Part shown: positions 3,431 to 41,498 of the stretch, piece by piece
How the letters are laid out: each line of letters opens with the position of its first letter
Numbering within the stretch: position 1 is the stretch's first letter
DNA from: Anaerolineae bacterium
GTDB taxonomy: Bacteria > Chloroflexota > Anaerolineae > UBA4142 > SHND01
Direction of reading: 5' to 3'
DNA length: 64,000 nt
Assembly (NCBI GenBank): GCA_021463195.1
Contig: JAJTXZ010000002.1
Location: 1-64,000, forward strand
Notes under the pieces: generated by a model
What the model was told of the DNA's origin: nothing
The model's input: only the letters and a program-made list of their open reading frames with translations
Databases searched by the model: none
Program-made: the position numbers and the translations under genes

Positions 3431-3502
3431 AGCGGGAGACGGGATTTGAACCCGCGGTCCTTTGCTTGGGAAGCAAATGCTTTACCGCTAAGCTACTCCC
3501 GC
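3431..3502 (-). tRNA. tRNA-Gly, anticodon CCC
   Basis: The minus strand folds into a full 72-nt cloverleaf. It has a 7-bp acceptor stem GCGGGAG/CTCCCGC, a D arm with AGCGGTA loop, anticodon stem TTTGC/GCAAA with loop TTCCCAA (anticodon CCC, reading GGG), a 5-nt variable loop, and a T arm with TTCAAAT. The discriminator base is T. The CCA end is not encoded. Loop and stem sizes are all standard. Confidence 0.95.
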
Positions 3503-6993: not shown

Positions 6994-7563
6994 ATGGTTC
7001 TCCAACTTTTTGAAGGCGAAAAAATTCGGCTTGCCGCGTTCGACGCGGACAAGGACGCTGAAATTTTTTCCAAATGGACGCATGACCCCGAATATCTGCG
7101 TCTCACCGAATACGAAGCCGCGCGTCCGCTTGCGCCGTTTCACATCAAGAAAAAATTTGAAGAGATGGAAAAAGACGCGCACGGCGATTTTTATTATTTC
7201 GTGATTCGAGCCAAAGAGGATGACCGCGCGCTCGGTTTCGCGCACATTCGTTGGGTGGAATGGAATCACGGCAACGCGCACTTTAATATGGCGCTTGGTT
7301 CGCCCGACGACCGTCGCAAAGGGTTGGGCAGTGAAGCATTGCAGATGATGCTGCGGTATGCGTTCGAAGAATTGAATTTGTATCGCATGACGGTTCACAC
7401 TTTCGAATACAACGACGGCGCGCGAAAATTTTTAGAGAAACGCGGCTTTCAACTCGAAGTGCGCCGCCGCGAAGCGATTTATCGCGATGGACGTTATTGG
7501 GACGCGCTGTCGTATGGAATTTTGGCGGAAGAGTGGAACAACCAAGTAGCAAGGAGCAAGTAG
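6994..7563 (+). CDS. GNAT family N-acetyltransferase (RimJ/RimL-like)
   Basis: A 189-aa acetyl-CoA-dependent acetyltransferase. The conserved core is visible: FNMALGSPDDRRKGLGSEAL (beta4 and the pyrophosphate-binding loop), then LQMMLRYAFEELNLYRMTVH and FEYNDGARKFLEKRGFQLE. I start at ATG 6994 (AAGGGAG upstream). The open frame extends to 6874, but that part crosses two terminators and a hairpin. The last codons (NNQVARSK) and the stop lie inside a repeat. First of three similar tandem genes. The substrate is unknown; the family covers ribosomal-protein N-termini, antibiotics and small amines. Confidence 0.85.
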   Translation: MVLQLFEGEKIRLAAFDADKDAEIFSKWTHDPEYLRLTEYEAARPLAPFHIKKKFEEMEKDAHGDFYYFVIRAKEDDRALGFAHIRWVEWNHGNAHFNMALGSPDDRRKGLGSEALQMMLRYAFEELNLYRMTVHTFEYNDGARKFLEKRGFQLEVRRREAIYRDGRYWDALSYGILAEEWNNQVARSK

Positions 7564-7597
7564 CAGGTTGCAAAAACTTGCTACCTGCTACCTACTA
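7542..7597. repeat. GTAGCA-type repeats and hairpin overlapping the end of the first GNAT gene
   Basis: Direct copies of AAGTAGCA/AGGAGCA are followed by an inverted repeat (GTAGCAGGT at 7560-7568, ACCTGCTAC at 7583-7591). The stop codon of the GNAT gene lies within it. There is no T-run, so it is not a standard terminator. Confidence 0.65.
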
Positions 7598-7612
7598 CTC
7601 GCCACCTAAAAC

Positions 7613-8173
7613 ATGAACAATCTTTTCACCGGCAAACTCACGCGACTCGTCGCCGAAGACGTTGAGAAAATGGGCGAGGTCATTGAACGATGGTCGCGTG
7701 ATTCCGAATTTTATCAACTGTTCGACAGTGACCCGACGCTGCCGCGCAATGCGAAACGCGCCACTGAACGAATGCGCGAACACGCGGAAAAAAATCGTCC
7801 GGGCAATTTTCCGTTTGATGTAGCGCGCTTGGAAGATGAACGCATCATCGGCGAAGGCGGTTTGTTTGACGCGTTTTCGTCGCATCGCAACGCGTGGCTC
7901 GCCATCGGCATCGGCGAACGCGAACTGTGGAGCAAGGGCTATGGCACCGACGCAGTGAACATCTTGCTGCGCTTTGCGTTTCAAGAATTGAATTTGCATC
8001 GCGTCAATCTCAACACTTTTGAATACAACGCGCGCGCGATTCGCGCGTACGAAAAAATTGGTTTTGTCCACGAAGGCAAAATGCGCGGCGCGCTGCGACG
8101 AGACGGCAGGCGTTGGGACATGATTTTTATGGGCATTCTGCGAACGGAATGGGAAGCGAAACAAAATGGATAA
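7613..8173 (+). CDS. GNAT family N-acetyltransferase (RimJ/RimL-like)
   Basis: 186 aa, clearly a paralogue of both neighbours. It shares the start xNxxFTGKLxRL, the acetyl-CoA loop region (AIGIGERELWSKGYGTDAVN), FAFQELNLHRVNLNTFEYNA and the C-terminal RRDGRRWDMIFMGILRTEWE. The C-terminal eight bases overlap the start of the next gene, so translation is coupled. No clear Shine-Dalgarno sequence precedes ATG 7613. Tandem duplication followed by divergence is the simple explanation. The target is unknown. Confidence 0.87.
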   Translation: MNNLFTGKLTRLVAEDVEKMGEVIERWSRDSEFYQLFDSDPTLPRNAKRATERMREHAEKNRPGNFPFDVARLEDERIIGEGGLFDAFSSHRNAWLAIGIGERELWSKGYGTDAVNILLRFAFQELNLHRVNLNTFEYNARAIRAYEKIGFVHEGKMRGALRRDGRRWDMIFMGILRTEWEAKQNG

Positions 8174-8723
8174 TCAAATCTTTACAGGCAAGCTCGTTCG
8201 ACTCGCCGCGCAAGACCCGGAAAAGGACGCAACGACGATTGCGGGATGGGACAAGGATACAGAATACACGCGTCTTTTGGAAGTAGATCCGGTGACACCC
8301 CCGCAGCTAAAGAACAAGCGCGAAAGATTGGAGCGCATGCCGAATCCGCATTTTTATCCCTTTGGCGTCCGCACGCTTACCGACGACATATTGATTGGCT
8401 TTTGTGTCTTGATGCGTGTCAATCATGTTCATGGTGACGCATTTGTGGGAATTGGTATGGGCGATCCCGCGTATCGCGGGAAAGGATACGGCACGGACGC
8501 CATGAATCTCATTTTGAGATTCGCGTTTCAAGAATTGAATTTGCATCGCGTTTCGCTCGATGCTGTCGCCACCAACGCGCGCGCAGTCCGTTCCTATGAA
8601 AAATGTGGTTTTGTCTTGGAAGGTCAAACGCGCGGTACGGAATTTCGCAGCGGCATTCGCGACAATATCGTCTCGATGGGGATTACGCGGCGAGAATGGG
8701 AAGGGATGAAGGTTGAAGGATGA
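8166..8723 (+). CDS. GNAT family N-acetyltransferase (RimJ/RimL-like)
   Basis: 185 aa, overlapping the previous gene by 8 bp. Core motifs are VGIGMGDPAYRGKGYGTDAM (acetyl-CoA pyrophosphate loop RGKGYG), LRFAFQELNLHRVSLDAVAT and RSYEKCGFVLEGQTRG. The near-identical FAFQELNLHRV stretch with the preceding gene shows recent common ancestry. The end (GMKVEG) is a short tail right before the stop. No substrate can be inferred beyond the family. Confidence 0.87.
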   Translation: MDNQIFTGKLVRLAAQDPEKDATTIAGWDKDTEYTRLLEVDPVTPPQLKNKRERLERMPNPHFYPFGVRTLTDDILIGFCVLMRVNHVHGDAFVGIGMGDPAYRGKGYGTDAMNLILRFAFQELNLHRVSLDAVATNARAVRSYEKCGFVLEGQTRGTEFRSGIRDNIVSMGITRREWEGMKVEG

Positions 8724-8767
8724 AACACGCGTAGGAGGCGTTCGCAAGTGAACTCCACTTGATAACG

Positions 8768-8838
8768 CCGAGAAGCGAGAAACGAGAAACGTCAAACGTC
8801 AAACGTCAGTCTCCAATCTCCAATCTCCAATCTCCAAT
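8768..8838. repeat. Composite short tandem repeat: GAGAAAC, ACGTCAA and CTCCAAT units
   Basis: Three adjacent tandem arrays: (GAGAA)(AC)G units from ~8768, three copies of AAACGTC, then four perfect copies of the heptamer CTCCAAT (8811-8838). It fills the gap before the GNAT gene at 8861. CTCCAAT arrays recur at five other places in the window. Confidence 0.85.
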
Positions 8839-8860
8839 CTCAACAAAACGAGGAAAACCA

Positions 8861-9883
8861 ATGTTAGCAACTCTTGAATCAACCACAACCTTTGCGCCCG
8901 AACTGGGTATCGAAGGATTAACCTTAAGGAATTGGCGCGATGAATCCGATTACGCCAAAATGCTGCCAATCTTGTACGCCGACCGACTCGCGCAAGGTTT
9001 GGAGGAAAGCGTTACGCTGCCCGATTACAAAACATCGTTCGAAACGATGCCGGGCATGGATGTTCGCACAGGCGTTTTCTTGCTCGAACGCTATGGCGAG
9101 CCGATTGCGTACAAGACGGTACGCGCCGTCCCCGAAGCGGATGGTTCTTTTCGTTACGCGCATTATGGCTCTGTGTTGCCTGAATGGAAAGGGCGCGGCA
9201 TCGGGCGCGCAATGATTCGTCACAGCGAAAATGTTTTGCGCGCATTGGCGAAAACGCATCCCGCCGACGCGCCGAAATTTTTTCAAACCTTTTTGCAAAG
9301 CACGCAAACGCAACTCATCCAATTGCTCGAGCAGGAAGGATACGCGCCGACGCGCTATTTTTTTGAAATGCTGCGCGAAATGTTGGACGATATTCCTGAA
9401 CATGATTTGCCGCACGGAATCGAGGCGCGTCCTGTTGAACCACAACACTATCGCAAAATTTGGGATGCGATGCTCGAAGCGTTCAAGGAACATTGGGGCG
9501 AAGAGGAGCACACCGACGCGGATTTTGAAAACTGGCTCAAGCGTTCGCATTTTGACCCGACGTTGTGGCATATCGCGTGGGATGGTGACCGCGTCGTTGC
9601 CGTCGTCATCAATCAGATTGATGAGAATGATAACGCACATTACAACCGTCAACGCGGGTTCACCGAAGACATTGCAACCTTAAAGGAATATCGCGGGCGC
9701 GGCATCGCGCAGGCATTGATCGCGCGCGGCTTGCGCCAATTCCGCCAACGCGGCATGAACGCGGCGGGGCTTGACGTGGACGGCGAAAACGCGACGGGCG
9801 CGCTGCGCTTGTACGAAAAACTGGGCTATCACCCAATTCGCACCGTGATGGCGTATCGGAAAGGATTAGAGACTGGAGACTAG
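8861..9883 (+). CDS. Tandem-domain GNAT acetyltransferase
   Basis: 340 aa with two GNAT domains. The N-terminal domain (residues ~15-165) has YGSVLPEWKGRGIGRAMIRH. The C-terminal one (~185-338) has FTEDIATLKEYRGRGIAQAL, then LDVDGENATGALRLYEKLGY. Both keep the R/Q-x-x-G-x-G/A acetyl-CoA loop. I start at ATG 8861 (GAGGAA 6 nt upstream); the open frame upstream encodes the CTCCAAT repeats (as SNLQSPISN) and is not credible. Double-GNAT proteins of this layout include mycothiol synthase-like enzymes, but residues for that activity cannot be judged here. The C-terminus (LETGD) is encoded by repeat sequence. Confidence 0.85.
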   Translation: MLATLESTTTFAPELGIEGLTLRNWRDESDYAKMLPILYADRLAQGLEESVTLPDYKTSFETMPGMDVRTGVFLLERYGEPIAYKTVRAVPEADGSFRYAHYGSVLPEWKGRGIGRAMIRHSENVLRALAKTHPADAPKFFQTFLQSTQTQLIQLLEQEGYAPTRYFFEMLREMLDDIPEHDLPHGIEARPVEPQHYRKIWDAMLEAFKEHWGEEEHTDADFENWLKRSHFDPTLWHIAWDGDRVVAVVINQIDENDNAHYNRQRGFTEDIATLKEYRGRGIAQALIARGLRQFRQRGMNAAGLDVDGENATGALRLYEKLGYHPIRTVMAYRKGLETGD

Positions 9884-9960
9884 AGACGAAAACCAGAGAC
9901 TTGGGACTGGAGCATAAAATCTCCAATCTCCAATCTCTAACCTCTAATCTTCAATCTCCA
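9866..9960. repeat. CTCCAAT-type repeats with inverted partner
   Basis: GAGACTGGAGACTAGAGAC at the end of the preceding gene is nearly the reverse complement of the following CTCCAATCTCCAATCTCTAACC array, so the transcript could fold back on itself. The stop codon of the GNAT gene at 9883 is inside it. Confidence 0.75.
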
Positions 9961-9970
9961 GATTTTCAGC

Positions 9971-10984
9971 ATGCCTATTTCAGTTGCAGCGCCAACGTTA
10001 AAGAAAAAACAAGAATATACCGCGCGCGAATTGGAGCGTCGCGATTTACCGGACATTTTGGAATTGCTCCACATCGTCAATCGAGCGGACGACAACGATT
10101 ATTATCAAGCGCTCGATGATTTGGAACGCGAGTATGCGGATCCGCGCAGCAATCCCAATACCGACGCGCGCATTTTCCGAAACGCGTTGGGGAAACTCGT
10201 CGCGTTCGCGCGTGTCTTTGTCGAACCCAAACCGACCAAAGAGAACATCGCATATTTGTCTTGTGAAATCGCGCCCGAAGCGCGTGAGCAAGGATTGGAA
10301 GAGGAATGTATCGAATGGATGCAAGAACGCGCGGCGGAATGTCTCGCCGAAACGGCGCGGGTGGATGACGTGGACGCGTTGCCGCGCGCCATGCGCGTTG
10401 ATTTCCCCGAGACTTCGCCGTTCCGCCCGTTTTATCAAGCGCGCGGTTTTGAATCTGCGCGCGCGTCGTACAGCATGGAGCGCGCTTTGCATGAACCCAT
10501 TCCCGAAAATTCATTGCCTCCCGACTTGGTTCTCGTTGAATACACAAAAGATTTGGACGATGCGGTTCGGCTCGCGTGCAACGAAGCGTTTCGTGACCAT
10601 TGGGGGCATCAAGACGCTTTGCCGGAAACATGGGAAACGGGTGTCTCGGAAGTTTCTGATTTGCGCCGCGACCTTTCTCTCGTCGTGATGGATGGAAATG
10701 AAATCGCGGCGTTTTGCGTTAATTTTGAAAATACGGCGGATAATGAAATGCGCGGCACGCGACGCGGTTGGATTGGCGTTTTGGGCACGCGGCGCCCTTG
10801 GCGCAAACGCGGCATCGCGTCCGCGCTGCTCGCGGAATCTATGCGGCGTTTTCACGCCATCGGTTTCGATTCAGTTGCGCTTGGAGTGGATACCGAAAAT
10901 CGTTCCGGCGCGCTCAGGCTGTACGAGAATTTGGGTTTCAAACCGTACATGACGCGGGTGATTTTGGAAAAAAGCGTGCGATAG
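9971..10984 (+). CDS. Tandem-domain GNAT acetyltransferase
   Basis: 337 aa, same double-GNAT layout as the gene before it. The N-terminal domain is degenerate: LSCEIAPEAREQGLEEECIE stands where the acetyl-CoA loop should be, and it lacks the R-x-x-G-x-G pattern. The C-terminal domain is intact (GVLGTRRPWRKRGIASALLA, then LGVDTENRSGALRLYENLGF). The N-terminal half is therefore probably structural. It starts at ATG 9971 with no clear Shine-Dalgarno sequence, right after repeat DNA. The two double-GNAT genes and the one at 16778 are related to each other. Confidence 0.85.
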   Translation: MPISVAAPTLKKKQEYTARELERRDLPDILELLHIVNRADDNDYYQALDDLEREYADPRSNPNTDARIFRNALGKLVAFARVFVEPKPTKENIAYLSCEIAPEAREQGLEEECIEWMQERAAECLAETARVDDVDALPRAMRVDFPETSPFRPFYQARGFESARASYSMERALHEPIPENSLPPDLVLVEYTKDLDDAVRLACNEAFRDHWGHQDALPETWETGVSEVSDLRRDLSLVVMDGNEIAAFCVNFENTADNEMRGTRRGWIGVLGTRRPWRKRGIASALLAESMRRFHAIGFDSVALGVDTENRSGALRLYENLGFKPYMTRVILEKSVR

Positions 10985-11015
10985 CGCAATCGTAGGGTAG
11001 TGCGGTAATGATAAC

Positions 11016-11051
11016 TGCACTATCGCACGCTTGCACTATCGCATTATCGCA
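11016..11051. repeat. TGCACTATCGCA direct repeats before the ABC-F gene
   Basis: Two exact copies of the 12-mer TGCACTATCGCA (11016-11027, 11032-11043) and a partial third (TTATCGCA). A different repeat family from CTCCAAT but in the same position, directly between genes. Confidence 0.75.
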
Positions 11052-11053
11052 CT

Positions 11054-12745
11054 TTGTTACACCTCTCTCATCTCTCCAAATCCTACGGCGTTACAACGAT
11101 TCTCGACGATGTTTCATTCGTTTTGAATCGCGGCGAACGCGCGGGACTCGTTGGCGTGAACGGCGCGGGGAAAACGACGCTGCTGCGAATCATCGCGGGC
11201 ATCGAACAATCCGACGCGGGCTTTGCGCGCCTCGACGCGCACGCAACATTCGGCTATTTGCCGCAGGGCTTGAATCTGGATGAAGCGCTCACGCTCGAAC
11301 AGTTGATTCGGCAGGGCGTCAGCGCGTGGGATGAGGCGCAAAATAAAATGGACGCGCTCGCGGAAAAATTGGAACGCGACGCGGCGAATGAAAATTTGCT
11401 CGCGGAATATGGCGACGCGTGCGCGCGGTTTGAAGAATTGGGCGGGTACGATGTCGAGGCGCGCCTCGAAAATGTTTTGCGCGGCTTGAGCTTGGAAAAT
11501 GTGCCGCGCGATTTGGCGATTGCGAAATTGAGCGGGGGACAACGCACGCGCGCGGGGCTCGCGCGATTGTTGATTTCCGAACCGAGCGTGTTGTTGCTCG
11601 ATGAGCCGACGAATCATCTCGACGTGGACGCGTTGGAATGGCTCGAACAGTTTATCCAAAATTATGCGGGCGCGGCGTTGATTGTTTCGCATGACCGCGT
11701 ATTTCTCGACAACACCGTTTCGCAGATTCTCGAACTCGACGACATGACGCATCGCGTCACAATGTATCACGGCGATTATTCGGCTTACGAAATGGCGAAA
11801 GCGCGCGAACTCGAACAGCAGTGGGGAATGTACAAAGACCAACAAATCGAACTCGCGCGTTTGTCCAATGCGGCGCGGCATTTGCGCGGCATCGCCAAAT
11901 TCCGCAAAGGCGGCAAAGCGGACACGAACGACAAATTCGCCAAAGCATTTTTTGCGAATCGCGGCAAAGCGACGGTGGCGCGCGCGAAAAGCATCGAAAA
12001 ACGAATCGAACATTTACAAACCGACGAAAAAATTTTCAAGCCCAAAGCGGGTTACGCGCTCAAATTGGATTTTGGCGAAATGCCGCGTTCGGGGCAGATG
12101 GTTTTGGGTTTGGAAGCGATAGGTTTCAAGTATCAGGTAGCAGGTATCACGTCACACGTCGCCCCTCTCCAGTCCCCAATCTCCTCTCTCCACTCTTTTT
12201 TGTTTCGGAATTTGAACGCCACCCTCCGTCACGGCGAACGCGTCGCGCTCATCGGCGCGAATGGGACGGGGAAATCTACGTTGTTGAAAATCATCGTGGG
12301 CGAATTGCAGCCGACAGAAGGAAATGTGCGATTGGGCGCGAATGTGCGCATCGGTTACATGTCACAAGAACAAGAAACGTTCGACGCGTCGCAAACGCCG
12401 CTCGCGCTGATTCGTTCGCTAATGCCCGTTGATGAAACGGACGCGCGTCATTTTTTGCATTACTTTATGTTTGAGCAGGACGAGGTTTTCACGCCCATCG
12501 GCAAATTGAGTTACGGCGAGCGCGCGCGTTTGATTTTGGCAAAACTCGTCGCGGAAAAAGCGAACGTTTTGATTTTGGATGAACCGATAAATCATTTGGA
12601 TATTCCGTCGCGCGAAAATTTTCAAACCGCGCTCGACGCGTTTCCCGGCACAATTCTCGTCGCCGTGCATGACCGCGCGTTTATTCAGAAATTTGCGACG
12701 CGCGTATGGGAGATGAAAGAGGGGAGACTGGAGATTCGAGATTAG
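11054..12745 (+). CDS. ABC-F family ATP-binding protein with an in-frame repeat-derived insert
   Basis: Cytosolic ABC-F protein of 563 aa with two ATPase domains and no membrane part. The family acts on the ribosome as translation factors or antibiotic-protection proteins. Domain 1: Walker A GVNGAGKTT (~residue 35), LSGGQRTRAGLARLL, Walker B VLLLDEPTNHLD. Domain 2: Walker A GANGTGKST, LSYGERARLILAKLV, LILDEPINHLD. The charged inter-domain linker is at ~240-345. The only sensible start is TTG 11054. Between the first strand of domain 2 and the next (residues ~360-384) about 20 residues are encoded by intergenic-type repeats. The C-terminus (RLEIRD) also comes from repeat sequence. Resistance versus housekeeping role cannot be told apart by sequence alone. 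Confidence 0.9.
   Translation: MLHLSHLSKSYGVTTILDDVSFVLNRGERAGLVGVNGAGKTTLLRIIAGIEQSDAGFARLDAHATFGYLPQGLNLDEALTLEQLIRQGVSAWDEAQNKMDALAEKLERDAANENLLAEYGDACARFEELGGYDVEARLENVLRGLSLENVPRDLAIAKLSGGQRTRAGLARLLISEPSVLLLDEPTNHLDVDALEWLEQFIQNYAGAALIVSHDRVFLDNTVSQILELDDMTHRVTMYHGDYSAYEMAKARELEQQWGMYKDQQIELARLSNAARHLRGIAKFRKGGKADTNDKFAKAFFANRGKATVARAKSIEKRIEHLQTDEKIFKPKAGYALKLDFGEMPRSGQMVLGLEAIGFKYQVAGITSHVAPLQSPISSLHSFLFRNLNATLRHGERVALIGANGTGKSTLLKIIVGELQPTEGNVRLGANVRIGYMSQEQETFDASQTPLALIRSLMPVDETDARHFLHYFMFEQDEVFTPIGKLSYGERARLILAKLVAEKANVLILDEPINHLDIPSRENFQTALDAFPGTILVAVHDRAFIQKFATRVWEMKEGRLEIRD
12131..12206 (+). repeat. Intergenic-type composite repeat inside the ABC-F coding region
   Basis: AGGTAGCAGGTATCAC, then ACGTCACACGTC, then a degraded CTCCAGTCCCCAATCTCC array: the same building blocks, and in part the same order, as the intergenic array at 8768-8838. 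It keeps the reading frame and encodes YQVAGITSHVAPLQSPISS in the second ATPase domain. Confidence 0.75.
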
Positions 12746-12790
12746 AGACTGGAGATTGCAGATTTTTGAATTTCGATTTTCGATTTCGGT
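12726..12790. repeat. GAGATT-type repeats at the end of the ABC-F gene
   Basis: GGAGACTGGAGATTCGAGATTAGAGACTGG is the reverse-complement orientation of the CTCCAAT family and includes the ABC-F stop codon. It is followed by GATTTTNGATTTCGGTTT-like direct repeats. Confidence 0.65.
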
Positions 12791-12843
12791 TTGCCGTTTG
12801 AGTAACCGCAAGCTGCGATCTGCACTCTGCCATCTGTAATAGT

Positions 12844-14190
12844 ATGGACATTCTAAAAACTTTACCCAATGGTCTTGTGATTCGTCGCGCGGCAATCGCC
12901 GACACTGACGCTCTGGTGGATTTGCAGATTCACGCGTTCGCAAATCCCGACACGGGCGAACTCGATCATTATCTCGGCGGCTGGACGCGCGATTTGATGA
13001 GCTGCAAACATCCGACCTTTCGCCCGGAAGATTTTCTCGTCGTTCAAGATACCAAAATGGGCGCGCTCGTTTCGTGTACCTGTTTGATTTCGCAAGTCTG
13101 GACTATGGATGGGATTTCGATTCGCGTAGGACGCCCGGAAATTGTGGGAACGTTAGCGGATTATCGGCGACGCGGTTTGATTCGCGAACAATTTAAAATC
13201 TTGCATGAATGGTCGCACGCGCGCGGCGAAATGGCGCAAGCGATTACGGGGATTCCGCATTACTATCGTCAATTCGGTTACGAGTTTGCGCTTGAACTCG
13301 TCGCGCCGCGTCAAACCTTTGTGCCGCAGCAAATTCCTGAATTGAAAGAGGGCGAACAGGAAAAATTCCGATTGCGCCGCGCGGAGCAAAATGATTTGTC
13401 CTTTATCGCGGAACTGTACAAACAATCGTGCGCGCGTTCATACGTTTCTTGTACGCGCGATGAAACGATGTTCGAGTACGAAAATTTTCTCGAAAACAAT
13501 TCGCTCAACGGTAACGCGTCGTGGTGGGATGTAATTGAGACGCAGGATGGTATGCGCGCGGGAATTGTGATGCACCGCCGCTATGTGTATCAAGGGCGCC
13601 ATTCGTCGCATTGTTTCGAGATTCTGCCACAATTCGCGTGGACTGAGGTGACGCCGTGTGTGTTGCGCGCGTTGACGCAACAAGCGAACGCGATGGAAAT
13701 AGAAGACAAGCAGCCGCTCGCAAAACTCGGTTGGTTCTTGCAATCTAATCATCCGTTTTATGAGATGTTTCCCGAACGCATTGCGACATGGTTTGGCGGC
13801 TATGCGTGGTATATCCGCGTTCCTGACATTCCCGCGTTTCTCCAACACATCGCGCCCATTTTAGAAAAACGTCTCGCGACATCAAATTTTCGCGGACTGA
13901 CCGAAGCGCTGCGTTTGAATTTTTATCGCGACGGCGTCGAGATGATTCTTGAAAATGGAAAAATGAAAGCCGCGCAAGCATGGCGCGCGACAGCGAATGA
14001 TTTTGGACAAAGCGGTTTTGGTAATGCCGCGTTTCCCGAATTAACGTTTCTCAAAATCTTGTTCGGCTATTGTTCACGTGCCGAACTGCAAGCGATGTTT
14101 CCCGATTGCCTCACGGATGGGGAGAAAACGTCCGCGCTGCTTGACGTTCTCTTTCCAAAGCAAATCTCGCACATCATGCCGATTCATTAA
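12844..14190 (+). CDS. Eis-like GNAT acetyltransferase
   Basis: 448 aa. The N-terminal GNAT domain (~10-160) has VGRPEIVGTLADYRRRGLIR (acetyl-CoA loop RRRGLI) and then AITGIPHYYRQFGYEFAL, close to the Eis-family pattern of a self-contained 'IYxRFGYG' strand. The rest is a larger C-terminal region with a second degenerate GNAT-like fold and an SCP2-like end, as in Eis. Eis enzymes acetylate aminoglycosides and protein lysines; sharing the fold does not prove that substrate here. It follows the ABC-F gene across a repeat-filled gap, with no clear Shine-Dalgarno sequence. Confidence 0.75.
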   Translation: MDILKTLPNGLVIRRAAIADTDALVDLQIHAFANPDTGELDHYLGGWTRDLMSCKHPTFRPEDFLVVQDTKMGALVSCTCLISQVWTMDGISIRVGRPEIVGTLADYRRRGLIREQFKILHEWSHARGEMAQAITGIPHYYRQFGYEFALELVAPRQTFVPQQIPELKEGEQEKFRLRRAEQNDLSFIAELYKQSCARSYVSCTRDETMFEYENFLENNSLNGNASWWDVIETQDGMRAGIVMHRRYVYQGRHSSHCFEILPQFAWTEVTPCVLRALTQQANAMEIEDKQPLAKLGWFLQSNHPFYEMFPERIATWFGGYAWYIRVPDIPAFLQHIAPILEKRLATSNFRGLTEALRLNFYRDGVEMILENGKMKAAQAWRATANDFGQSGFGNAAFPELTFLKILFGYCSRAELQAMFPDCLTDGEKTSALLDVLFPKQISHIMPIH

Positions 14191-14204
14191 TCAGTCGCCA
14201 TTCG

Positions 14205-14233
14205 CCAATCTCCAATCTCCAATCTCTAATCTC
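14205..14233. repeat. CTCCAAT heptamer array
   Basis: Several units of (C)CAATCTC/CTCCAAT between the Eis-like gene and rsgA, the same family as at 8811 and 9919. Confidence 0.75.
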
Positions 14234-14255
14234 AAATTCATCAAGGAGGTGTTTT

Positions 14256-14372
14256 ATGCACAAACAATTTCAATTCTCCCCAAACACAAATCATTTATTC
14301 GATTCAAGGAGAATCCATGTCTCTCGAACGAAACACCTCCGTTACAGAGGTTACACAAGGCGTTGTATATAA
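14256..14372 (+). CDS. Small upstream ORF (38 aa) overlapping the rsgA start
   Basis: ATG 14256 has the best Shine-Dalgarno sequence in the region (AAGGAGGT, 5 nt spacing). The frame encodes a basic peptide beginning MHKQFQFSPNTNHLF. It ends 56 nt inside rsgA in another frame. A strong ribosome site here means ribosomes translating it would cross the rsgA start, so a regulatory upstream ORF is plausible. It may equally be a remnant of a lost gene. Confidence 0.4.
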   Translation: MHKQFQFSPNTNHLFDSRRIHVSRTKHLRYRGYTRRCI

Positions 14373-15312
14373 AAAATCGCAAGGACATTACGGCGTGCGC
14401 GTCAATGGGCATTTGCTCGACTGCGAAATTTCGTCGCGCTTACGCAAGCATCTCGAATACCCAATCGCCGCGCCTACCTCGCGCCGTCACCGCGTTCTCG
14501 CCGTACACGAAATCCGCGTCGTTGACCCGATAGCGATTGGCGATGTCGTGCAGTTTTTACGCGCGGGCGATGACGCGGGCATCATCACAAATGTCTTGCC
14601 GCGTCGCAATCAAATCGCGCGCCAAGACCCGGGTCCGCGCCCGACAGAACAAATCATCGCCGCAAACATTGATTATCTCGTGCATGTGATTGCGTGCGCG
14701 CAGCCCGCGCCGCGTTGGGAATTGCTTGACCGCTATCTCGCGTCGGCAGAGAAAGCGGAAATTCCTTCACTCATCATTTTTACGAAAAGCGATTTGCTGC
14801 AGGATGAGGCGCTCGAACGCGAAATGGAAAATTATCGCGCCATCGGTTATCCCGTGATATTCACGAGCGCGACGACAGGGCAGGGGATTGCGGAATTGCG
14901 CGACGCGCTGCGCGACAAAACATGTGTGTTCGTTGGCATGTCAGGCGTGGGCAAATCAACATTGTTGAACGCGTTACAGCCCGAACTCGCGCTGCGCGTA
15001 AAGGAAATCAGCCGCGCGTCGGGCAAGGGCAAACACACGACGACGCATCTCGAAATGTTTGATTTTGATTTCGGCGGGCGTGTGATTGATACGCCGGGGT
15101 TGAAATATCTGACGCTGTGGGAAATGAACGGCGCGCAAATCGCGGAATACTTTGTCGAGATGCAGCCGTATCTCGGCAAATGCAAATTCGGCGCGGACTG
15201 TTCGCATGACCACGAACCCGATTGCGCGATAAAACGCGCGGTGAACGCGGGCGCGATTTCGGAACGACGTTATGCGAGTTATTTGCGGATAAAGGATAAA
15301 ACGTCCGTGTAA
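14317..15312 (+). CDS. rsgA: Ribosome small subunit-dependent GTPase A
   Basis: Circularly permuted GTPase (331 aa) that acts in late 30S ribosome maturation. Order of parts: OB-fold (~1-100, ending GDVVQFLRAGDD), then G4 TKSDLL (~158), then G1 GMSGVGKSTLL (~208), then G3 DTPGLKYL, then the zinc knuckle CKFGADCSHDHEPDC. This permuted motif order is diagnostic. It starts at ATG 14317 with CAAGGAG upstream. The stop codon is part of a 21-bp hairpin shared with the following MFS gene. It is the only clear housekeeping gene inside the acetyltransferase island. Confidence 0.95.
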   Translation: MSLERNTSVTEVTQGVVYKKSQGHYGVRVNGHLLDCEISSRLRKHLEYPIAAPTSRRHRVLAVHEIRVVDPIAIGDVVQFLRAGDDAGIITNVLPRRNQIARQDPGPRPTEQIIAANIDYLVHVIACAQPAPRWELLDRYLASAEKAEIPSLIIFTKSDLLQDEALEREMENYRAIGYPVIFTSATTGQGIAELRDALRDKTCVFVGMSGVGKSTLLNALQPELALRVKEISRASGKGKHTTTHLEMFDFDFGGRVIDTPGLKYLTLWEMNGAQIAEYFVEMQPYLGKCKFGADCSHDHEPDCAIKRAVNAGAISERRYASYLRIKDKTSV

Positions 15313-15351
15313 AAAATTATTGGTTACAGAGTAACCAATAATTTTTTACAC
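15307..15351. terminator. Perfect 21-bp hairpin, bidirectional terminator-like
   Basis: Arms 15307-15327 and 15331-15351 are exact reverse complements with a 3-nt loop (AGA). Each arm has a 6-nt A/T run, so it can act as a terminator on either strand. It contains the rsgA stop codon and ends only 8 nt before the MFS start, so it would also shape translation of the next gene. Confidence 0.8.
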
Positions 15352-15359
15352 TCTCATCC

Positions 15360-16592
15360 ATGAAGCGCCTTGACGGCTATACCGTTTTTCTGTTTCAAGA
15401 ATTTACGGGTTCGCTTTTGTTCGCCGTAATTTTCACTGCCAACATTCTGTACCAAGTGCAGACGGTTGGCTTGAATCCGTTTCAACTCGTGCTGGTCGGC
15501 ACGGTGTTAGAGTTGACCGCGTTCATTGCCGAAGTGCCGACGGGCATTATCGCGGATGTGTACAGTCGGCGGCTCTCGATCATCATCGGTTACGTGGTGG
15601 TGGGCATCGGGCTGATGCTCGAAGGTTCGATTCCGCAATTTTGGGCGGTGCTGCTCGCGCAAGTGATTTGGGGCATCGGCATCACGTTTCAAAGCGGCGC
15701 GCTCGAAGCATGGGTCGCAGATGAAGTGGGGCAAGAAAACGCGGGCAAAGCATTTTTGCGCGGCGCGCAGTTCGGCAAAGCGGGCGCGCTCGTCGGAATT
15801 GGCGTCAGTGTGTTGTTGGGCAGTATCGCGTTGAACGTGCCGATTGTGGTCGGCGCCGCGCTGCTGATTGTCTTGGGCATTGTGCTGGCTTTCATCATGC
15901 CCGAAACAGGATTCAAGCCGACGCCGCGCGAAGATCGCAATACGTTTCAACACATGGGACACACTTTCCGCGCAGGCACCGCGCTCGTGCGAAAAAATCG
16001 AATTCTCATTTCGCTGCTGCTCGCCGCCGCGTTCTTTGGCGCGTTCAGCGAAGGGTTTGACCGCTTGTGGCTGCCGCATTTGGTTCAATTTACACTGCCG
16101 TATTTTGAACCGATTGTGTGGGTGGGCATCATTGATGCAGTCTCGCTCGGGTTGGGAATTGTTGCGACGGAATTTGTGACGCGCCGTGTGGATACGAACA
16201 ATCAATTCATCGTCGCGCGCGCGTTGCAAATTGTCATCGCGCTGATTATGGCGTTGATGTTCGTGTACGGACTCGCGTGGGAGTTTAGCGTTGCGCTCAT
16301 TGCGCTGCTTGCGCTCAACCCGCTGCGCGGGATGAATTATCCGCTCGCGACGGCGTGGATGAATCTGCATGTCGAATCGTCGGTGCGCGCGACAGTGTTT
16401 TCGATTCGCAATCAAGCCGACGCGTTCGGACAAATGCTTGGCGGTCCGATACTTGGCGCGATTGCGACGCTGGTTTCGCTGCGCGCGGAAATGGTTGTCG
16501 CCGCGTTGTTTCTGATTCCCACGTTGTACTTGTATTCGCGCAAGTTTGATGCGAATGAAATGTCGAATGTACAAGCAGAACTGAATATGTAA
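15360..16592 (+). CDS. MFS transporter (drug-efflux-like)
   Basis: 410 aa with about 12 hydrophobic helices. The segment between helices 2 and 3 reads GIIADVYSRRLSIIIG, the D-x-x-S/G-R-R signature of the major facilitator superfamily; EVPTG before it is typical of DHA3-like multidrug or macrolide exporters. A central loop rich in charged residues (ETGFKPTPREDRNTFQH) divides the two halves. There is no Shine-Dalgarno sequence; the ATG sits 8 nt after a perfect hairpin. The neighbourhood (ABC-F, Eis-like) makes antibiotic efflux an attractive idea, but the substrate is unproven. Confidence 0.85.
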   Translation: MKRLDGYTVFLFQEFTGSLLFAVIFTANILYQVQTVGLNPFQLVLVGTVLELTAFIAEVPTGIIADVYSRRLSIIIGYVVVGIGLMLEGSIPQFWAVLLAQVIWGIGITFQSGALEAWVADEVGQENAGKAFLRGAQFGKAGALVGIGVSVLLGSIALNVPIVVGAALLIVLGIVLAFIMPETGFKPTPREDRNTFQHMGHTFRAGTALVRKNRILISLLLAAAFFGAFSEGFDRLWLPHLVQFTLPYFEPIVWVGIIDAVSLGLGIVATEFVTRRVDTNNQFIVARALQIVIALIMALMFVYGLAWEFSVALIALLALNPLRGMNYPLATAWMNLHVESSVRATVFSIRNQADAFGQMLGGPILGAIATLVSLRAEMVVAALFLIPTLYLYSRKFDANEMSNVQAELNM

Positions 16593-16599
16593 ATAGAAT

Positions 16600-16650
16600 C
16601 GCGGATAACGCGGATTCTACGGATTGCAAAATAAATCCGCGTCATCCGTG
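16600..16650. repeat. Inverted repeat of ATCCGCG units
   Basis: Left arm CGCGGATAACGCGGATT (16600-16616) and right arm AATCCGCGTCATCCGTG (16634-16650) pair at 15 of 17 positions. More degenerate units extend to ~16665. It follows the MFS stop with no T-run. Confidence 0.7.
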
Positions 16651-16700
16651 CTATCTGCGGTTTATAAAATGAATCACGAATCGGAATAGCGATTAAAGTA

Positions 16701-16766
16701 GGGGCGAAGCATTGACATTGACAACCGCGCGTCGAGTCACAAACGCGACTGTCAATGCTTTGCCCC
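16701..16766. repeat. Palindromic element with GGGGCGAAGCATTGACA ends
   Basis: Terminal inverted repeats of 17 bp (16701-16717 and 16750-16766, 16 of 17 match) enclose 32 bp that contains its own inner inverted repeat (CGCG...CGCG). Size and shape are those of a small MITE-like repeat. It lies just before the GNAT start at 16778. Confidence 0.7.
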
Positions 16767-16777
16767 AACAAACGAAA

Positions 16778-17710
16778 ATGAAAAACGAATTACTCTCGGG
16801 TTTTACATGGCGCGCGCCGACGCCCGATGACGCGCAAGCCGTGACCGATTTTCTCGCGGTGTGCGATACGTTTGATTATGGCGAACCCGATTTTTCGCTG
16901 GAAGATGTGCGCGCGGATTGGCGGCGCGATGGGTTTCAGTTGGAACGCGACGCGTGGTTAATTTTTGCGAAGGATGGAACGCTCGCGGCGTATGGTTTCG
17001 TTTGGGACACGGACGAACGCGCGCGCGTGGAGCCGACAACGTGTGTGCATCCAAATTTTCGCGCACAGGGGCTGGAGGATTTTCACATCGCGCAGGTGGA
17101 GGCGCACACGCGCGCGCAACTGGAAACAAAAATTATTCAGTGGATTGTCAACAGCGCGCAACATTCTTGGACGGAACGCTTTGAGCAGCGCGGCTATCAC
17201 ATCGCGCGTCACGATTACGTGATGGAAATTGTGTTGGATGAAAAACCGAATCCCCCGACTCTCGCCAATGGTTTTGTGATGCGTTCGTTTGAGCGCGGAC
17301 GCGATGACCGCGCGGTGTGGGCGTGTTTGCAAGAAGCGTTTCGTGACCATCGCGGACACAGCGATAGGGAATACGAGGAATGGGCGTCAAGTTTTTTCGA
17401 GCACCCCGAGTGGTCGTCGGAATTGTCAACGGTTGTGACACAGGGCGAAGAGGTGGTCGCGGCGGCGATGGTGTTTCATTCGTTCGCGGGCGGCTGGATT
17501 CGCGCGCTCGGCGTGCGGCGTCCGTGGCGCAAACACGGGATTGGGCTTGCAATGCTGCATCGAATTTTTGGCGAATGTTACGCGCGCGGAATTCATAAAG
17601 TGGGACTCGGCGTAGACGCGGAGAGTTTAACTGGCGCGACGCGTTTGTATAAACGCGCGGGGATGAAGGTAAAAGTTCATTTTGTGAGATATGAAAAAGA
17701 AATTGTGTAA
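16778..17710 (+). CDS. Tandem-domain GNAT acetyltransferase
   Basis: 310 aa, related to the double-GNAT genes at 8861 and 9971. The N-terminal domain carries VHPNFRAQGLEDFHIAQ (degenerate acetyl-CoA loop). The C-terminal domain is intact: ALGVRRPWRKHGIGLAMLHR and LGVDAESLTGATRLYKRAGM. I use ATG 16778; the open frame continues up to 16712, but that start lies inside a palindromic repeat. It ends with a strong terminator shared with the convergent TA module. The target is unknown. Confidence 0.84.
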   Translation: MKNELLSGFTWRAPTPDDAQAVTDFLAVCDTFDYGEPDFSLEDVRADWRRDGFQLERDAWLIFAKDGTLAAYGFVWDTDERARVEPTTCVHPNFRAQGLEDFHIAQVEAHTRAQLETKIIQWIVNSAQHSWTERFEQRGYHIARHDYVMEIVLDEKPNPPTLANGFVMRSFERGRDDRAVWACLQEAFRDHRGHSDREYEEWASSFFEHPEWSSELSTVVTQGEEVVAAAMVFHSFAGGWIRALGVRRPWRKHGIGLAMLHRIFGECYARGIHKVGLGVDAESLTGATRLYKRAGMKVKVHFVRYEKEIV

Positions 17711-41422: not shown

Positions 41423-41458
41423 ATTTTCAAGAGATTCGAAAATAAAGTTTGCGGCTCC

Positions 41459-41483
41459 ACTTTCCAATCTCCAATCTCCAATC
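41459..41483. repeat. CTCCAAT heptamer array
   Basis: ACTTTCCAATCTCCAATCTCC, about three units, just upstream of YqeY and downstream of the quinone reductase. Same family as in the acetyltransferase island 25-30 kb away. Confidence 0.7.
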
Positions 41484-41498
41484 TTCCAGCTCCGCGTG

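Follow-up and report, generated by a model that had tools for sequence, protein, structure and literature searches.

Heptamer arrays in an Anaerolineae genome as candidate arms of small palindromic, IVS-like elements

Introduction

The S23/IVP proteins (PF05635) form a family of four-helix bundles first known from the intervening sequences (IVS) of 23S rRNA. Rickettsia palindromic elements are palindromic selfish DNA that is also found in frame inside housekeeping genes. IVS carrying an S23p open reading frame (ORF), for example in Coxiella, have been treated as selfish (PMC4990558). Among described heptamer repeats, GGGAATC arrays of Xanthomonas show the same placement at stop and start codons as reported below and form paired convergent arrays, a purine-rich array (R) followed by a pyrimidine-rich one (Y) (Rehm et al., PMC4692102). 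TAACTGA direct repeats of Beggiatoaceae, Cyanobacteria, and Bacteroidetes have been seen as possible translational regulator sites (PMC4679880), and GATAGRA heptamer satellites are known from Chloroflexus aurantiacus (PMC6749651).

Here, we describe CTCCAAT-type arrays in the genome of an uncultured Anaerolineae bacterium (Chloroflexota), which resemble each of these systems in part. Like the STRR of heterocystous cyanobacteria and the G-rich heptamers of Nostoc and Xanthomonas, they are built of 7-nt tandem units, occur genome-wide, and lie mostly in gaps between co-directional genes (PMC4692102). Unlike the Nostoc and Xanthomonas heptamers, their GGAGA[T/C]T strand is without GGG tracts, many unit families and a second period of 8 nt coexist in one genome, and copies lie in frame in housekeeping proteins; S23 is without mention in that work (PMC4692102). 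With TAACTGA repeats they share heptamer arrays in gaps near start codons, mixture with other heptamers, and 7-nt indels, though TAACTGA repeats were described without a palindromic partner or an IVP gene (PMC4679880). The stem-loop with an S23/IVP ORF in its loop, and the homologous protein family, recall the 23S rRNA IVS (PMC4990558), but our elements lie in operon gaps of protein genes, their stems are tandem 7/8-nt arrays, and gene-less copies far outnumber gene-bearing ones. Rickettsia palindromic elements resemble them in also entering housekeeping genes in frame; in contrast, the copies here are tandem 7/8-nt arrays of no fixed sequence, with units that vary by site and species, and most in-frame copies are single arrays. 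The GATAGRA satellites are likewise heptamer arrays scattered in a Chloroflexota genome, with a different unit, and no anatomy or mechanism was found described for them (PMC6749651).

Results

Arrays in the window

The window is the whole 64,000-nt stretch analyzed, on contig C56 of a 4.72-Mb draft genome of 143 contigs (G000). A preliminary description had named CTCCAAT-type arrays at six places (8811, 9919, 12726 in inverted form, 14205, 41459, and 12131), and all six are real in the letters. Runs of (CTCCAAT)n occupy 8810-8841, 9918-9960, 14205-14237, and 41455-41484, with the inverted form at 12724-12764. With ≤2 mismatches allowed, the window contains 19 copies of the dimer CTCCAATCTCCAAT; 100 dinucleotide shuffles gave 0.39 on average and 2 at most.

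Most of these arrays lie in an island of plus-strand genes (6994-17710) that comprises six acetyltransferase (GNAT) genes, an ABC-F ATPase, and an RsgA GTPase. The description of arrays as filling nearly every gap of this island is borne out in six of eight gaps in the interval 7564-16711 and does not extend to the window at large, where period 7/8 is present in just 8 of 53 gaps. Two of the island gaps carry units other than CTCCAAT. The first gap has a GTAGCAG-type palindrome at 7543-7598 that overlaps the 3′ end of the upstream acetyltransferase gene; its R unit is CAAGTAG/AAGTAGC and its Y unit GCTACTT/CTACCTG, in period-7 segments at 7543-7572 and 7576-7598. The other is the gap 10985-11122, where a period-8 unit, AGTGCGAT/ATCGCACT, forms an R-Y palindrome without a gene at approximately 10975-11053; this unit is the arm unit of an S23/IVP element elsewhere in the same genome (G000:C133:56442).

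The arrays are compound, with units that switch in register. Across 8769-8841, CGAGAAA gives way to CGTCAAA (8769-8809) and then to a Y-type array, (CTCCAAT)4.6, which ends 19 nt 5′ of the ATG at 8861. The gene that starts there (8861-9883) has its stop codon within an R-type array of GAGACTG/GAGACTA at 9864-9912, so that its protein ends in GLETGD; the Y-type array at 9918-9960, which pairs with it in the RNA fold (z −2.4), ends 10 nt 5′ of the ATG at 9971. The ABC-F gene contains an in-frame compound array at 12123-12196, in the linker 5′ of the second ABC domain, and an R-type array lies across its stop (12709-12764; protein end GRLEIRD). The rest of that gap, 12765-12841, is further period-7 DNA of TTCGATT type and then CTGCACT type (12723-12800 by period scan, the remainder by eye). 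A Y-type (CAATCTC)n array at 14192-14237 follows the stop at 14190 and lies 5′ of the gene at 14317. All of these are on the plus strand; on the minus strand, an array at 41455-41484 that is R-type in the coding sense lies between two genes, in the 31-nt gap 41468-41498 and over its left edge. A tRNA gene at 3431-3502 (minus strand) was the only family found when the window and four element loci were scanned with Rfam.

Period, extent, and distribution among relatives

We then examined the genome beyond the window, as the preliminary description had proposed. CTCCAAT-dimer matches (≤1 mismatch) numbered 354 in the whole genome, against none for the backwards control pattern, and thus the arrays are not the product of one local duplication. 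Restriction to the island and a single duplication event were the two findings named beforehand as speaking against a general phenomenon, and neither applies. The own-genome statistics that follow cover ~0.70-0.75 Mb (~15% of the genome) in stretches partly chosen for array matches, with genes called by a simple home-made codon-usage caller. The proposed comparison of intergenic with coding DNA gave 55.3 and 4.7 arrays per 100 kb, respectively, a roughly 12-fold higher density in gaps. As in STRR, head-to-tail 7-nt units are therefore dispersed over many loci and are mostly non-coding.

The period is specific. Within 0.70 Mb, the gaps (103 kb) contained 57 period-7 arrays and the coding DNA (599 kb) 28, against one in a Markov null. 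For period 8 the numbers were 13 and 3, and periods 5, 6, 9, and 10 gave zero or one array each in the gaps. Many units share these periods, among them GAGATTG, AATTTCG, CTTTTAA, CCAATTC, and TCGTCCG, with in-register changes within single arrays. The GAGA-type consensus is GAGA[T/C]T[G/A], and the commonest copy number is 4-7. The resemblance to STRR repeats noted beforehand is real in part. GGAGA[T/C]T is one base from the Nostoc heptamer GGGGA[C/T]T, and cyanobacterial IVP genes are framed by heptamer-type arrays (see below), but the STRR unit CCCCA[A/G]T is not matched exactly, as the consensus here is [C/T]A[A/G]TCTC with GGGGATT as a minor variant, and the identity of the heptamer turns out to be secondary.

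Relatives were represented by one genome per species, such that within-species dynamics are visible solely in a multi-copy cyanobacterial element. CTCCAAT-dimer matches ranged from 9 to 374 among congeners and were mostly in the tens to hundreds among relatives of the same order, whereas other families of the class had almost none. A period-7/8 excess, with partly different units, was also seen in the congener G005 and in G015, from another family, and was almost absent from 19 stretches of other families of the class. Matches to a 21-mer of the unit came chiefly from Chloroflexota MAGs, followed by cyanobacteria, Verrucomicrobia, Planctomycetes, and Bacteroidota. Many copies are present in each of several Chloroflexota genomes, among them those of Candidatus Viridilinea mediisalina and a Litorilinea MAG.

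Gap arrays follow an R-then-Y plan

Gap arrays in the own genome lay between co-directional genes in 62 cases, between divergent genes in one, and between convergent genes in none, against background gaps of 286, 48, and 42, respectively. Arrays that read GGAGATT/GAGATTG in the gene sense (R) were nearer the upstream stop codon in 31 of 32 cases, often with the stop inside the array, and those that read CTCCAAT/CAATCTC (Y) were nearer the next start in 26 of 30, ending ~15 nt before it. The G-rich strand is thus in sense after stops and antisense before starts, as in the G-rich heptamers of Nostoc and Xanthomonas (PMC4692102). Where two opposite arrays lay ≤80 nt apart, the order was R-then-Y in all 20 pairs of the own genome and all 26 from other Chloroflexota (46 of 46). 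The rule that ties polarity to the gap edge extended to divergent and convergent gaps for GAGA-type units (35:7 versus 11:40) and was absent for other units.

That placement, the 7-nt period, and the convergent pairs are shared with the G-quadruplex repeats of Xanthomonas (PMC4692102), and one could propose that our arrays are G-quadruplex repeats of the GGGAATC or GGGGAYT type. We consider this very improbable: GGAGATT has GG tracts only, as no unit of the GGAGAYT form includes a run of three or more G, copy number peaks at 4-7 with no clear preference for four, and further units within the same arrays are AT-rich.

The confinement to co-directional gaps and the stop-R-Y-start geometry could equally be what selection for a regulatory hairpin would produce, with an intercistronic mRNA stem that insulates translation, sets mRNA stability, or acts as an RNase III site. 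Strong hairpins are predicted for some of these gaps (z −6.7 and −7.8) and not for others. The gap 14191-14316, for instance, has kept one arm and folds with z −0.5, and many gaps are likewise single-armed. Nor do the arms covary, as similarity within a pair does not exceed that between pairs (p = 0.99); orthologous gaps of congeners are often free of arrays, and arrays also occur within coding sequence. Taken together, we regard selected hairpins as improbable.

The gene-less arrays of the own genome had no common flanks beyond array-like words, showed no defined ends, and did not share an order of units between loci. Since flanks and unit order are unshared and arms are not mirrored, these arrays are not fresh copies of one element. 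We accordingly rejected a single mobile element with fixed ends as their source and, because the arms are not mirrored, fold-back copying of one arm into the other.

S23/IVP genes are framed by inverted arrays

A link to S23/IVP genes emerged from comparing orthologous gaps and was later tested on newly gathered phylum, cyanobacterial, and plasmid sets. In the own genome, an IVP gene (PF05635) lies in the purF-purD gap with arms of GAGATTG/CTCCAAT type, in the order purF-R-Y-IVP-Y-purD. An S23/IVP ORF between complementary arms is a feature of IVP elements in this and other genomes, and the arrays of the window are without such an ORF. The own genome has just 6 IVP genes, against its 354 CTCCAAT-dimer matches. 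The S23p gene XCC0516 (2gsc) was the nearest match found among solved structures.

Arms were scored by local alignment of the upstream flank of each IVP gene against the reverse complement of its downstream flank, scores that are not phylogenetically independent. Inverted arrays surrounded IVP genes in several bacterial groups. The score was 24.6 for 22 IVP genes of the order set against 9.8 for 117 other short genes of the same genomes (p = 8e-13), and 16.7 for 29 IVP genes of the phylum set against 8.6 for 30 controls (p = 4e-7). Cyanobacterial chromosomes gave 22.9 (29 IVP genes) and plasmids, including those of Azospirillum and Gemmatirosa, 19.0 (18 IVP genes), each against 8.2 for shifted controls (p = 2e-12 and p = 7e-9). 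Direct repeats around IVP genes were not enriched in any set (p = 0.48 in the order set). Among the 59 elements with clear arms, the best period was 7 in 41 and 8 in 13, and the 5′ arm was purine-rich in 52, which is the polarity of the gene-less R-Y pairs. Elements whose neighbors were read lay between protein genes (purF-purD, nrdB-nrdA, and cas6-cas4), not in an rRNA gene.

Cyanobacterial IVP arms are of the heptamer/STRR type (GGGAGTA, AGTGCTG, and AGGAGTC); those of GGGAGTA flank an IVP gene between nrdB and nrdA of Nostoc edaphicum. TAACTGA, read as CAGTTAT, forms the arms of the IVP gene at locus L282 and also occurs in arrays of the congener G001. Arm similarity tracked IVP protein similarity (Mantel r = 0.46, 0 of 5,000 permutations), a correlation of arm unit with protein type that is partly vertical, as the loci L281 and L282 are orthologous. 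Over a set of 59 genomes, the density of IVP copies rose with that of arrays (rho 0.75; 0.52 within the order and 0.39 outside it), with phylogeny not removed. Gene-less arrays shared words with IVP arms of their own genome at 26.6 per Mb, against 12.2 for arms of other genomes (p = 0.003) and 2.4 for the class control; this sharing is enriched rather than exclusive, and several IVP arms had hardly any gene-less relatives in the sample. Our limited literature search found no report that joins S23/IVP proteins with heptamer repeats.

Two observations concern the neighbors and cargo of such palindromes. On three cyanobacterial plasmids (L324, L329, and L330), an IVP gene and its arms lie within a CRISPR operon: two genera have them between cas6 and cas4, each with its own arm unit, while in a third genus they separate cas10 from cmr3. 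Genes that resemble a GxxExxY-like protein occur at L243:15528-15998, L288:377-811, L206:9458-9922, and L059:164-541, and inverted repeats flanked them at the three loci tested (scores 15-20.5); they may be another cargo of palindromes.

We also asked whether stop codons might explain the period. R arms closed 1.68 reading frames on average against 1.30 when shuffled, and all three frames in 22 of the 59 elements. As this excess is mild, closure of all frames by the R arm was dropped as the reason for period 7/8 and is kept merely as an idea.

Arms and gene move together

One element consisting of arms plus gene is present at three unrelated sites. The loci L243a, L249, and L250, one in the own genome and two in G001, have only ~510-550 nt in common, comprising a AGTGCGAT array, an IVP gene, and a ATCGCACT array. 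Their neighbors differ, homology stops at the outer ends of the arms, and the two arms of this ~550-nt element fold as one stem in RNA (z = −8.0).

IVP genes are also carried by transposons. The cyanobacterium G277 has a pair of 576-nt copies, 99.8% identical over the element, with an 18-bp terminal inverted repeat and, at one copy, a 10-bp target-site duplication. A second cyanobacterium, G295 (L341-L354), has at least 11 near-identical copies of an IVP-bearing transposon with the 16-bp terminal inverted repeat TAACTGACGTTACGCA, in which a GTTTCAG array inside the transposon is either 3 or 4 units long, a difference of exactly one heptamer; these copies are a natural experiment for 7-nt slippage. 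As the IVP cassette lies inside an ordinary transposon in both genomes, something other than the IVP protein may be moving it. Two other candidates for a required mover were rejected because they are missing from some array-rich genomes. RAYT (Y1 transposase, PF01797) had no match in G011, which has 257 array matches, and reverse transcriptase (PF00078) had none in the array-rich G015 and G018, drafts that are 87% and 93% complete.

Arrays inside genes and turnover of units

In-frame arrays were found in PurH, PurD, PurQ, CarA, CarB, TilS, two MutS genes, the ABC-F gene, and others. In translation, a Y array reads LQSPISN and an R array RLEIGDW or RLETGD, the latter also as C-terminal tails, and the arrays in protein loops are mostly single arrays rather than palindromes. 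Housekeeping genes with in-frame arrays that were tested scored mostly far over their NCBIfam cut-offs. Array-encoded peptides (RLETGDWRLEIGD, LQSPISN) on or in housekeeping proteins can mislead annotation and alignments. A genome in 143 draft contigs might raise the suspicion of an assembly or binning artefact, a reading to which we give next to no weight given these mostly high-scoring genes, the recurrence of the pattern in many independent assemblies, and the same anatomy round IVP genes on complete plasmids.

Comparison of orthologous sites shows that the site and the 7-nt period persist between congeners while the unit turns over. At the ABC-F site, the units are GTATCAG/CTCTCCA in G000, CGTCAAA in G001, TCAAACG in G003, and CAGTCTC in G005, and G004 has no array. 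PurQ orthologues contain three different units, with lengths equal to that of the array-free G004 except for an additional 63 nt (9 units) in G001. Orthologous gaps in congeners are often without any array. Because units differ where period and site are kept, the identity of the heptamer is secondary. At two sites, other repeats stand in place of heptamers. Where G000 has its array in the PurH loop (L224), the in-frame tandem repeat of G003 is of another kind (GACCTCGCCGCACAGGGC-type, translated as DLAAQG), and in the purK-purF gap (L225 and L224), a GAGACTG palindrome in G000 is replaced by longer-period palindromes (CGCGAATCTA-like) in G001 and G003, so that this gap hosts unrelated hairpins in different congeners.

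Neighboring GAGA-type units were more alike than shuffled ones, at 0.318 against 0.250 ± 0.019 for lag 1 and 0.346 against 0.245 ± 0.025 for lag 2, which is the mark of tandem duplication in steps of 7 and 14 nt. A conditioned analysis had given no correlation between neighbors; this was an artefact of the search pattern, and the unconditioned analysis shows the correlation.

Such likeness between neighbors is what a plain STRR or microsatellite would leave, with polymerase slippage in place that prefers 7 nt, tolerance in gaps and loops, and homogenization through exchange among arrays, and with IVP genes as passengers that land or survive in the loops of palindromes. The different units at one site in congeners, the one-unit difference among G295 copies, and the unshared flanks of arrays fit this account as well, as do 7-nt indels between Cyanothece strains (PMC4679880) and the polymerase footprint suggested elsewhere (PMC4692102). 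Slippage alone, however, does not account for an R-Y order of 46:0, for the way arm units match IVP protein types across genomes, or for the joint movement of arms and gene as a ~550-nt unit, and we think this reading rather unlikely. Loss of mismatch repair was rejected as a cause, as mutS/mutL families matched in 60 of 60 relatives searched, whether array-rich or array-poor. The own genome has two MutS1 genes, at L235:6757-9546 (contig C104) and L168:2710-5355 (contig C17), both with in-frame heptamer arrays, and MutL matches lie near the C104 copy.

Discussion

The arrays occur genome-wide, are specific for periods 7 and 8, keep an R-Y order, and are placed in operon gaps and permissive protein loops. 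We favor the interpretation that there is a family of small palindromic, IVS-like elements and that CTCCAAT is one strand of their arms, and consider it reasonably probable. In such an element, units of 7 or 8 nt would form a purine-rich tandem array (R), followed by a loop and an inverted pyrimidine-rich array (Y). Complete elements have an S23/IVP gene in the loop, and the forms in the window have a short gene-less loop or a single remaining arm. Gene-less arrays may descend from IVP elements or have been spread by them; since they are not fresh copies of one element, the case for descent is built on the unit, polarity, and placement that they share. Slippage by 7 or 14 nt, together with exchange among arrays, would then alter how many units there are and which, with selection as a filter. 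Arrays would be tolerated in gaps and in the surface loops of proteins, and the two strands may be tolerated at different edges: the R strand, with its GGAG, TTG, and sometimes TAG, at stop codons, and the Y strand, which offers neither a start codon nor a Shine-Dalgarno sequence, before starts. The IVP protein probably recognizes its own stem, at the level of RNA or DNA. That gene-less arrays are mobile is inferred, as is any function they may have.

More tentatively, and as a possibility rather than an expectation, many bacterial repeats of period 7/8 (CTCCAAT, STRR-type, TAACTGA, and possibly GGGAATC) could be the arms of one class of palindromic elements defined by S23/IVP, in which each protein recognizes the arm unit of its element, and from which gene-less derivatives are seeded into operon gaps and in-frame protein loops. 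If true, heptamer repeats would gain an origin and S23/IVP proteins a role. The position of S23/IVP proteins between inverted heptamer arrays in Chloroflexota, Cyanobacteria, and other groups, with arm units matched to protein types, may link the preference of bacterial tandem repeats for 7 nt to the role of these proteins, and makes both approachable by simple binding and excision assays.
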